From assembly GCF_014132155.1 (NCBI RefSeq), contig NZ_BLJQ01000001.1:558001-622000 (forward strand): a stretch of 64,000 bases of DNA, in the 5' to 3' direction. This document shows positions 15,058-18,057 of the stretch, piece by piece (position 1 is the first letter of the stretch; the number at the start of each line of letters is the position of its first letter). The notes beneath the pieces are model-generated. The model was not told the DNA's origin and searched no databases. It worked only from the letters and a program-made list of their open reading frames with translations. This stretch comes from Gluconobacter sp. Gdi. Lineage in GTDB: Bacteria > Pseudomonadota > Alphaproteobacteria > Acetobacterales > Acetobacteraceae. Made by a program: the position numbers and the translations under genes.

Positions 15058-15738
15058 ATGTCTTCAACCCTCTCCCCGCGTTCTGCACTGGATGCGGAGG
15101 CCGTCAAGGCGGCCTATCGTCGATGGGCGCGAGTTTACGATACTGTTTTTGGTGGTATCTCCGGCTATGGACGCAAGAGGGCTGTTGAAGCCGTAAACGC
15201 CCTCCCAGGAGAGCGGGTTCTTGAAGTCGGCGTTGGGACAGGCCTCGCGCTGCCGTCATATTCTCCGGATAAACGCATTACCGGCATCGATCTGTCGGAA
15301 GACATGCTTGACCGCGCACGTCAGCGCATTCTTCAGGACCGTCTGACCAATGTCGATGACCTGCTGGAAATGGATGCAGAAGCCACGACTTTCGAAGACA
15401 ACAGCTTTGACATCGCAGTTGCGATGTTCGTAGCGTCCGTCGTTCCACACCCCGACCGTCTTCTCGCCGAACTGAAGCGTGTTGTTCGTCCGGGCGGTCA
15501 CATCCTGTTTGTGAACCACTTTCTTGCAACGGGTGGCCTGCGTCTGACAGTAGAACGCGGCATGGCCCGTGCCTCGCGTTCCCTCGGCTGGCATCCGGAC
15601 TTCGCAATCGAGTCTCTTCTGCCACCAGAAGACCTGAAACGCGCGACTATGACGCCTGTTCCACCTGCCGGGCTGTTTACACTCGTGACATTGCCGCAAT
15701 GCGAGAGTAAAAGCGATGCCGCAGCCCTGGTCGCCTGA
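15058..15738 (+). CDS. pmtA: phosphatidylethanolamine N-methyltransferase (Rhodobacter-type PmtA)
   Basis: Class I SAM-dependent methyltransferase. It probably methylates phosphatidylethanolamine three times to phosphatidylcholine at the inner membrane. The SAM-binding motif VLEVGVGTGLALPSY follows YRRWARVYDTVFGG; ITGIDLSEDML and VVPHPDRLLAELKRVVRPGGHILFVNHF complete the fold. The combination of YDTVFGG near the N-terminus, the NHF motif and the 226-residue length matches the Rhodobacter PmtA branch rather than UbiE or the Sinorhizobium type. It lies upstream of the COX1-like gene with an 83-base gap. Confidence 0.78.
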   Translation: MSSTLSPRSALDAEAVKAAYRRWARVYDTVFGGISGYGRKRAVEAVNALPGERVLEVGVGTGLALPSYSPDKRITGIDLSEDMLDRARQRILQDRLTNVDDLLEMDAEATTFEDNSFDIAVAMFVASVVPHPDRLLAELKRVVRPGGHILFVNHFLATGGLRLTVERGMARASRSLGWHPDFAIESLLPPEDLKRATMTPVPPAGLFTLVTLPQCESKSDAAALVA

Positions 15739-15821
15739 TCGGCGTATGGCTCCGGTTAAGCCGGCGCCGAGTATTCCGACGCTCGCTGCGGTATTCCTTG
15801 GCAGGGACCGACTACGCGATC

Positions 15822-16997
15822 ATGACTTATCAGGCCTTCGACTCTACCCCCGCTCTTTCCAATAGACGGATCGGCGCATCCTTTATTTTACTGGCACTGT
15901 TTGCTGGTCTTCTGGGTGGGTCGTTGGCTCTGCCATTCCTTCAGATTCATCCAACTGCCGGGCAGGCTTTCTGCCACGGCATTCTGATGGCTTTCTTTGT
16001 AATCTGTCCGGCTGCGCTCGGTGGATTCGGCCAATGGCTCCTCCCTGCCGAGCTTGGAACAGACAGAACGACTCTTCCGGCTCTGACACTGACGGGCTTC
16101 TGTTTCCTGTCATCCGGCATTGTTCTTCTTCCAATCCAGCCAATCATTGCACTTGCGCTCTGGGCCGTGGGTGTTTTCGCTGTTGCGCTGGATGTCATCA
16201 CAACTTTTCTCGAAGGGCGTGTTCTTCAGTTCCGGAAGCTCTCTCCATTGGCTTGGTCCATGCTTGCGACAGCATCCGGTGTGACGATTGTCGCGCCTGT
16301 CCTTGCTGCAATCATGACGCGGATGATGATCAATGGTGCTCCGGCCAATGCTGCTCATGAGCTGGTCAGCATGCTTCATCTTCCAGAAACATCTCTGATG
16401 CTGACCCCAGCGCTGGGGTTGGTTTGCTATCTGTTGTCATCCAGCCGGAATAAGCCGGGACTGGCTGACCGGCTGGCTCCGTATGCTTTTGGCGTGATGG
16501 CTGTCGTGGGCCCGCTCTTCTGGATGGACGGCCTCTTCGGTGGTGTGCCTGCGGCAGTGCAGGGAAGCCTCGTGGTGTTGACCCAGCTTGTGCCGTCGGT
16601 CCTGCTGGTAACTGCGCTTTGCGTTGACGTCTGGAAGCAGCGCCAGGAGCTGGATGGGACGACGCTCTGGGCTCTAGGAAGTGTGATCCTTTTCTCTGCG
16701 GGTTGGATTGCAGAGTTCATGCCGGGGCATGGAACAGATCATTCAGCCGCGGCGTTTGGTGGCATTATGGCTCTCTGTGGTGGTTTCTATGCCTGGATGA
16801 TGCGTGTGCTCCCAGATCATATTCCGTCTCCACTGAGCCGCATGCATGCAGGCCTGACCTTTGTGGGAGCTCTTTGCTCTCTGACACCAGCGCTGATGGT
16901 AGTCGGAGAAGGCCTGATGGGCCTCAGCCTGCTGACATTCGGCATACTCGGACTTTTCCTGATCAAGGAGACCGGGCGCGCCCGGGCCAAAGCATGA
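15822..16997 (+). CDS. degenerate or repurposed heme-copper oxidase subunit I (COX1-like)
   Basis: A 391-residue polytopic membrane protein whose sequence aligns block by block with cytochrome c oxidase subunit I: RRIGASFILLALFAGLLGG, FCHGILMAFFVICPAALGGFG, DVITTFLEGR, LAWSMLATASGVTIVAPVLA, HLPETSLMLTPALGLVCYLL and HSAAAFGGIMALCGGFYAW. The His of CHG (residue 52) and the His of DHSAAAF (residue 307) fall where the two low-spin heme a ligands lie. The CuB ligand of HPEVY is Leu 187, the cross-linking Tyr is Ser, the HH pair is Asp-Gly (236-237) and the heme a3 His is Thr. It cannot be a normal oxidase. The stop overlaps the ctaB start (ATGA). ATG 15822 is preferred to TTG 15798. Confidence 0.75.
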   Translation: MTYQAFDSTPALSNRRIGASFILLALFAGLLGGSLALPFLQIHPTAGQAFCHGILMAFFVICPAALGGFGQWLLPAELGTDRTTLPALTLTGFCFLSSGIVLLPIQPIIALALWAVGVFAVALDVITTFLEGRVLQFRKLSPLAWSMLATASGVTIVAPVLAAIMTRMMINGAPANAAHELVSMLHLPETSLMLTPALGLVCYLLSSSRNKPGLADRLAPYAFGVMAVVGPLFWMDGLFGGVPAAVQGSLVVLTQLVPSVLLVTALCVDVWKQRQELDGTTLWALGSVILFSAGWIAEFMPGHGTDHSAAAFGGIMALCGGFYAWMMRVLPDHIPSPLSRMHAGLTFVGALCSLTPALMVVGEGLMGLSLLTFGILGLFLIKETGRARAKA

Positions 16998-17941
16998 GTG
17001 AAGCAACACCCTTAGCCCCCTCGGGGCTTTTTTCAGTTCTGGGCGATAAAGGAGACTCGTCGCTCAAGGACTGGCTGGCTCTGCTGAAGCCGCGGGTTAT
17101 TTCCCTTGTGGTGTTTACCGGCGCTGCGGGCATGGCTGTGGCTCCACAGTGGCCGTCCATCCCCATTGGCCTCATTACCATCCTGTGCATCTGTATCGGT
17201 GCTGGCGCCGCCGGTGCGATCAATATGTGGTACGACCGCGATATCGACGCAGTCATGCGCCGAACCAATGTACGCCCGATCCCTGATGGCAGAATGCCAG
17301 CGGATAGCGCGCTGGTTTATGGTATCGCGCTGTCCGTACTGTCTGTTGTCGTGCTGTGGCTCGCCACAAATGCTCTTGCCGCAGGCATTCTGGCGTTCTC
17401 GATCTTTTTCTACAGTGTCGTTTACACGATGTGGCTCAAGCGGAGTACGCCGCAGAACATCGTGATTGGGGGTGCCGCAGGGGCGTTTCCTCCGATGATC
17501 GGCTGGGCAGCGACTATGAATTCCATGGCAGTTCTGCCCGTTGCCATGTTCGCCATTGTGTTCCTCTGGACGCCACCGCACTTCTGGTCTCTGTCGCTTT
17601 ACGCGTGCAAGGATTACGACAAAGCGGGGATCCCGATGCTGCCGGTCGTCAAAGGCGCCCGTCACACACGCTGGCAGATCCTTCTTTATACATTCATCCT
17701 CACGGCCGTCTCACTGTGGCCATCTTTCGCGCATGAATGCGGAATGTTTTACACAGTGACGACAAGCCTGCTGGATCTGGGTTTCATCCTGTGCGCCTTG
17801 CGTGTGCTGATGGACCAGCAGGATGCAACGGGCGTAAGCCTGACAAAAGACAAGCCAGCGCGCTTCGCTTTCCGATATTCGCTGGCTTATCTGTTTTTTC
17901 TATTTTGTGGTCTTCTGGTGGATCGGGTTCTGCTGTCATGA
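16994..17941 (+). CDS. ctaB: protoheme IX farnesyltransferase (heme O synthase)
   Basis: UbiA-family prenyltransferase that attaches farnesyl to heme B to form heme O, needed by bo3 quinol oxidases and as precursor of heme A. The first Asp-rich site is NMWYDRDIDAVMRRT, the second DYDKAGIPMLP; WTPPHFWSLSLY is a family block. About nine transmembrane helices over 315 residues. The ATG at 16994 overlaps the stop of the COX1-like gene; a longer frame beginning inside that gene was rejected. Gene order COX1-ctaB-coxF is that of alphaproteobacterial aa3 oxidase operons, here without subunits II and III. Confidence 0.95.
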   Translation: MSEATPLAPSGLFSVLGDKGDSSLKDWLALLKPRVISLVVFTGAAGMAVAPQWPSIPIGLITILCICIGAGAAGAINMWYDRDIDAVMRRTNVRPIPDGRMPADSALVYGIALSVLSVVVLWLATNALAAGILAFSIFFYSVVYTMWLKRSTPQNIVIGGAAGAFPPMIGWAATMNSMAVLPVAMFAIVFLWTPPHFWSLSLYACKDYDKAGIPMLPVVKGARHTRWQILLYTFILTAVSLWPSFAHECGMFYTVTTSLLDLGFILCALRVLMDQQDATGVSLTKDKPARFAFRYSLAYLFFLFCGLLVDRVLLS

Positions 17942-18057
17942 AAACAACGATGCCTGATCTCGCAGCGAAACGGCGTCAGAGCCGTATCGTCGGAATTGCA
18001 GGAGGGGTCATTACCCTCGCTGCAATTTTCTATGTGATTACACTGATCCGTTTCTAA
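17938..18057 (+). CDS. CoxF-like small membrane peptide (39 aa)
   Basis: Tiny open frame starting in an ATGA overlap with the ctaB stop. The product has a basic N-terminus (LAAKRRQSRIV) and one transmembrane helix (GIAGGVITLAAIFYVITLI). Size, position directly after ctaB and the RRxxR-helix-YVIT pattern match the small CoxF protein found between ctaB and ctaG in alphaproteobacterial cytochrome oxidase operons. The usual next genes, ctaG and ctaE, are absent; a convergent gene follows instead. Assignment is by context and pattern. Confidence 0.65.
   Translation: MKTTMPDLAAKRRQSRIVGIAGGVITLAAIFYVITLIRF

Follow-up and report, generated by a model that had tools for sequence, protein, structure and literature searches.

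A COX1-derived membrane protein of acetic acid bacteria that keeps the low-spin heme histidines and is probably a heme-docking partner of the heme O synthase CtaB

Introduction

What does the catalytic subunit of a cytochrome c oxidase do once its oxygen-reducing site has gone? The question is raised by a gene of Gluconobacter sp. Gdi, here called ctaD* (product CtaD*), which lies in the 64,000-nucleotide stretch of DNA analysed in this work (the window). An earlier note, made from the DNA letters alone, had read it as a relative of cytochrome c oxidase subunit I (COX1) in which only the low-spin heme site survives, and had tentatively suggested a b- or o-type heme carrier or a heme O carrier for CtaB. 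The gene itself is already known (Matsutani et al. 2014, doi 10.1016/j.bbabio.2014.05.355; Degli Esposti et al. 2023): it belongs to the same family as the 'deranged COX1-like protein' found beside ctaB in acetic acid bacteria without aa3 oxidase, which was published as lacking all metal ligands and as possibly stabilising CtaB (PMC10715153). We found no literature on its expression or essentiality. New in the present analysis are the finding that the low-spin pair never varies within the clade, the single origin, the purifying selection, the contrast with sister lineages, and the loss of the CuB and heme A machinery.

Descent and fold

15822-16997, + strand: ctaD*, COX1-derived membrane protein of 391 aa keeping only the low-spin heme ligands (homology, ligand map, fold match, 92 orthologues and dN/dS)

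The frame runs from an ATG at 15822 to a TGA stop at 16995-16997; the mechanically called open reading frame begins at a TTG at 15798, and the conserved start is the ATG. Judged by sequence comparison, CtaD* is a clear but remote homologue of COX1. It matches R. sphaeroides COX1 with a phmmer E-value of 1.2e-14, Pfam PF00115 (COX1) at 8e-19, and NCBIfam CtaD_CoxA at 1e-12 with 47.5 bits, far under the equivalog cut-off of 670.75 bits. It is 98% identical to its counterpart in G. cerinus NBRC 3267. The AlphaFold2 model, built with 49 orthologues in the alignment (pLDDT 91.3, pTM 0.91), predicts a fold of 12 helices as in COX1; the PDB structures closest to it are all oxidase subunit I (VIA-align Z 34, 366 of 391 residues, 3.0 Å), as are those found by Foldseek (E 4e-11).

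The earlier claim that the protein aligns to COX1 without large gaps stands in part. The homology is real and transmembrane helix II (TM-II) aligns gap-free with true COX1, but several extramembrane loops are deleted: in the alignment to true COX1, CtaD* lacks the W172 loop, the Mg/H411 region and the propionate-binding MPRRY loop, and the same three elements are missing in most or all of its relatives.

Heme and copper ligands

Ligand positions were mapped on three true COX1 sequences from the same GTDB family, as follows.

15975-15977, + strand: codon of His52, the residue of TM-II that ligates the low-spin heme (H102 in R. sphaeroides, H61 in bovine COX1); unchanged over the tree and His in 92/92 orthologues
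16740-16742, + strand: codon of His307, the residue of TM-X that ligates the low-spin heme (H421 in R. sphaeroides, H378 in bovine COX1); unchanged over the tree and His in 92/92 orthologues
16380-16394, + strand: former HPEVY motif, now L187-P-E-T-S191, with the CuB His and the cross-linked Tyr lost (alignment)
16527-16532, + strand: former CuB His-His pair, now Asp236-Gly237 (alignment)
16734-16736, + strand: former heme a3 His, now Thr305 (alignment)

The bovine COX1 sequence was checked by H61, R38 and H378. On this map the oxygen-reduction site has been replaced, as the earlier note had proposed, with Leu187 for the first CuB His, Ser191 for the Tyr, Asp236-Gly237 for the CuB pair and Thr305 for the a3 ligand; a search of the full alignment for displaced CuB or a3 histidines found none. 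Both low-spin ligands, His52 and His307, are kept, again in agreement with the note, and neither is lost in any of the 92 orthologues. His307 is the low-spin histidine and not a displaced a3 His, because it lies 18 residues before the conserved W325, the spacing of the low-spin His in true COX1, where the a3 His would lie at 20.

Other functional residues have gone as well. The D- and K-channel residues (D132, K362) are lost in most or all relatives, and the family has lost the propionate-holding Arg pair and the formyl-binding Arg, so any heme site in CtaD* must be altered.

Across the 92 orthologues, the first CuB His and the cross-linked Tyr occur in none, the a3 His in 2, the second CuB His in 30 and the third in 7. 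The second of these CuB positions is D236 in the window (16527-16529); in the 30 sequences with His there the motif is often His-Asp, and part of the clade therefore keeps one CuB histidine. Two tryptophans are characteristic of the derived family, W114 (16161-16163; Trp in 62 of 67) and W295 (16704-16706; 40 of 67), at positions occupied by Ala or Gly in true COX1; the two might take up the space left empty at a3/CuB.

Orthologues and invariance

We searched 299 genomes of the GTDB family and made one scan of named genomes, which together yielded 92 derived sequences; in the family search they are confined to the acetic-acid clade, in about 20 genus-level groups, and the 50 representative genomes that were re-searched stand for 20 such groups. 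A contig scan with the close-relative alignment A3 returns only Gluconobacter, Neokomagataea and close kin. A class-wide profile fails to separate derived from true COX1 because it matches both; among the best matches listed outside the family, the open frames are at least 477 aa, like true COX1. One very divergent copy (genome G056, locus L097) also has both low-spin histidines.

In a tree with 17 true COX1 sequences, a branch with SH-aLRT 100 sets the derived family apart, and its origin is single. The rooting is taken from this tree, which replaces one with three true COX1 sequences in which these were not monophyletic. The ctaB tree branches broadly like that of ctaD*.

Divergence within the family is extensive. 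Pairwise identity in a set of 67 sequences has a median of 26% and falls to 15%; the tree is about 40 substitutions per site long, and the median column has 21 changes. Only four columns show no change at all, H52, H307, W145 and W234, and these are also the only ones of the 201 columns invariant in the 17 true COX1 sequences that do not vary in the derived set either. Both low-spin histidines would fall among four invariant columns by chance with p of about 3e-4. For W145 and W234, we know of no role in heme binding. By pocket, retention is 0.35 for heme a, 0.09 for a3/CuB and 0.33 for the baseline of all true-invariant columns; the pocket lists, which follow the bovine structure, are approximate.

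It is difficult to see why two of just four unchanged columns should be buried histidines unless a cofactor is held between H52 and H307, and from these sequence data CtaD* very probably binds heme.

Selection

Pairwise dN/dS (YN00) of ctaD* has a median of 0.071 in Gluconobacter, where that of ctaB is 0.023, and of 0.119 in twelve other clusters of close relatives. The gene clearly evolves faster than ctaB, which indicates weaker constraint than on the core enzyme; it is nonetheless under purifying selection and clearly constrained as a protein. Relaxed selection with frameshifts in relatives was looked for, and neither internal stops nor frameshifts occur in the orthologues listed. The earlier view that the gene is conserved and not merely decayed is therefore borne out by the medians of 0.07 and 0.12 and by the intact frames.

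These values bear on one further reading of the locus. Matsutani and co-workers reportedly called the Acetobacter ctaD non-functional in 2014, and are said to have viewed it as a gene with 'accumulated mutations'; on such a reading ctaD* would be a decaying pseudogene, kept only since ctaB is translated through it. Its fast evolution relative to ctaB and the loss of all catalytic residues would fit decay. The marks of a pseudogene, disrupted frames and dN/dS near 1, are absent, however: dN/dS is 0.07-0.12, there is no frameshift or stop in the orthologues listed, and coupling to ctaB could keep the frame open but not two histidines over some 40 substitutions per site. Real loss, in sister lineages, takes the form of deletion or a stump (see below). 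We consider decay highly improbable and reject it on the dN/dS values and the invariance of both histidines.

Gene neighbourhood and heme machinery

15058-15738, + strand: UbiE/PmtA-like methyltransferase, upstream neighbour of ctaD* (Pfam Methyltransf_11, conserved synteny)
16994-17941, + strand: ctaB, heme O synthase (NCBIfam PRK04375.1-2, 326.8 bits, equivalog cut-off 246)
17938-18057, + strand: coxF-like single-TM peptide of 39 aa (MKTTMPDLAAKRRQSRIVGIAGGVITLAAIFYVITLIRF), with an ATGA overlap with ctaB; named by position only

The ATG of ctaB overlaps the stop of ctaD* by 4 nt (ATGA), an arrangement kept in Gluconobacter and Neokomagataea. CtaB is the only heme O synthase: exactly one copy is present per genome in 53 of 53 genomes, the window's own included, and that copy is ctaB. 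It adjoins ctaD*, which lies upstream, in 41 of the 41 loci placed in both trees, and in the loci examined ctaD* is never found away from ctaB.

The gene order across the clade is gshB, methyltransferase, ctaD*, ctaB, Tim44-like, TldD/PmbA. Small ORFs similar to the coxF-like peptide, which has no Pfam match, follow ctaB in most relatives and also in the true COX loci L068, L070 and L072. In L068 and L072 the methyltransferase likewise stands ahead of the true cta operon. Within the family, the order in true operons is methyltransferase, COX2-type subunit II gene and ctaD, with a Cox11-like gene following (subunit II and Cox11 were recognised by reading the L068 translation). By this synteny, the derived locus is what remains of the former cta operon once subunit II and the copper chaperone are taken away.

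Cox11/CtaG, the CuB chaperone, is absent from all 50 of the 50 genomes carrying ctaD*, which fits the missing CuB site. Heme A synthase (CtaA) is absent from 24 of these 50, including the window's genome and all Gluconobacter tested. Apart from CtaD*, we found only one COX1-family protein in the window's genome, which by its length and score is of the bo3 type: CyoB, subunit I of cytochrome bo3 (C1:627003-628349), matches PF00115 over its full length with 484 bits, against 58 bits for CtaD*. The two proteins have a homologous fold and share a cell, and CyoB needs heme O from the same CtaB. Because the window's genome has no heme A synthase that we could find, and CtaD* neither CuB nor an a3 ligand, its proposed heme should be B or O.

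Directly after the ctaD* stop, within the first codons of ctaB, lies a terminator-like hairpin followed by a T run (17014-17028). Like GC hairpins with a T run occur in about ten Gluconobacter species, and the hairpin partly encodes a conserved Pro-Ser-Gly; it is a possible attenuator between ctaD* and ctaB.

The strict linkage to ctaB, the translational overlap and the purifying selection would also suit a cofactor-free structural stabiliser of CtaB, as suggested by Degli Esposti et al. 2023 (PMC10715153). That proposal of a purely structural role rested on the loss of all metal ligands, a basis which the alignment contradicts for the low-spin pair, nor would a scaffold without a cofactor account for two buried histidines among four unchanged columns; we regard this role as improbable. 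A single heme site without catalysis beside the only heme O synthase could also belong to a sensor of membrane heme B/O status, for example one regulating CtaB activity. CtaD* has no signalling domain, however, and no result points specifically to sensing, so that this role seems more improbable still.

Lineages without ctaD*

Three genomes of sister lineages that lost the oxidase (G001, G053 and G179), which fall outside the derived clade on the ctaB tree, keep ctaB beside the methyltransferase and have lost ctaD. It follows that neither linkage nor CtaB activity forces the retention of ctaD, and that retention of ctaD* in the acetic-acid clade needs a reason of its own. CyoE of E. coli also works without CtaD*, and the CtaB of A. 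pasteurianus was reportedly expressed alone in E. coli by Matsutani and co-workers in 2014. From all these cases, CtaB catalysis does not require CtaD*.

In G053, a stump of 47 aa (L131:4458-4598) lies between the methyltransferase and ctaB and matches true COX1; it is a genuine pseudogene remnant of a true ctaD. Four small genomes without ctaD* (G029, G066, G070 and G116) have no recognisable ctaB and no bo3-type match. In three of them, relatives of about 2 Mb (G029, G066 and G116), the sole COX1-family match is a protein of about 790-830 aa, possibly a quinol NO reductase.

That sister lineages run ctaB without ctaD* leaves room for a role of CtaD* separate from heme O supply, which is the main rival to a partnership with CtaB: a heme redox protein with its own job, such as a b/o-type membrane electron carrier or a quinol-linked reductase, its tie to ctaB being only historical. 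Low-spin hemes with two His ligands are classical centres of electron transfer, and the site kept here is that of the heme through which electrons enter the oxidase. Against this, ctaD* has neither a CuA subunit gene nor a conserved redox partner gene adjoining it, the proton-channel residues D132 and K362 are lost, and the gene does not occur apart from ctaB in the loci examined. We hold a separate redox role to be possible, if rather unlikely.

Discussion

The reading that we prefer builds on results that are computational throughout: descent, a single origin, loss of the binuclear centre, invariance of the histidines, purifying selection and linkage to the sole heme O synthase. CtaD* derives from the catalytic subunit of the aa3 cytochrome c oxidase that was lost by the ancestor of the acetic acid bacteria. 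As ctaC and ctaG/ctaE went, the unit ctaD*-ctaB-(coxF) remained; the oxygen-reducing centre, the proton channels and the propionate and Mg loops decayed, while selection maintained the fold of 12 helices and the low-spin heme site with its two histidines. The protein would then hold one low-spin heme between H52 and H307 and act in the membrane as a heme-docking or hand-off partner of the adjacent CtaB, on which alone the bo3 ubiquinol oxidase depends for its heme O. We give a probability of roughly 0.55 to this reading, of CtaD* as a bis-His heme B/O protein under purifying selection that probably serves CtaB as a heme-docking partner. Its second part is the softer one: a role in CtaB-linked heme handling could go either way and is our best guess because the sole heme O synthase is always alongside. 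Partnerships of this general kind have been described. CtaA-CtaB complexes are documented in other bacteria, and hand-off to subunit I has been proposed (PMC9145763); in yeast, Cox10 is stabilised and multimerised by Coa2 (PMC11011759).

True CtaD/COX1 of the aa3 oxidases (R. sphaeroides 3om3/1m56, P. denitrificans 1ar1) shares with CtaD* a common fold over nearly the whole length, the low-spin His pair and a like operon position between methyltransferase and ctaB. Unlike it, CtaD* has no CuB ligands, Tyr, a3 His or K-channel Lys, its W172, Mg-site and propionate-Arg loops are deleted, neither ctaC nor Cox11 accompanies it, and it has 391 aa vs about 540. As a candidate functional heme-copper oxidase subunit I, it has the fold and the low-spin histidines; CuB, the a3 His, the Tyr, a score above the CtaD_CoxA cut-off and Cox11 are all missing. 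Degenerate B-family oxygen reductases (a term from PMC6431628) are likewise oxidase-derived and thought to have lost or changed O2 reduction, but belong to another family of the superfamily. The 'deranged COX1-like protein' fits CtaD* in being a COX1 homologue, encoded upstream of ctaB, that has no binuclear centre; as published, however, it lacks all metal-binding residues, whereas CtaD* keeps the low-spin pair in 92/92, and the published claim of total metal-ligand loss is corrected accordingly.

A gene once written off as dead thus probably still works, to judge from its conserved residues, as a one-heme membrane protein. In Gluconobacter and Acetobacter, genes can be deleted cleanly as a matter of routine. 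Little is understood of how heme is delivered to the catalytic subunits of oxidases in respiration, and across a whole clade of industrial bacteria ctaD* amounts to a natural experiment in which the catalytic centre has been stripped away and one heme site, with its link to the heme O synthase, has been kept. If it binds heme, CtaD* would be a minimal, single-site model of heme loading into the oxidase fold.
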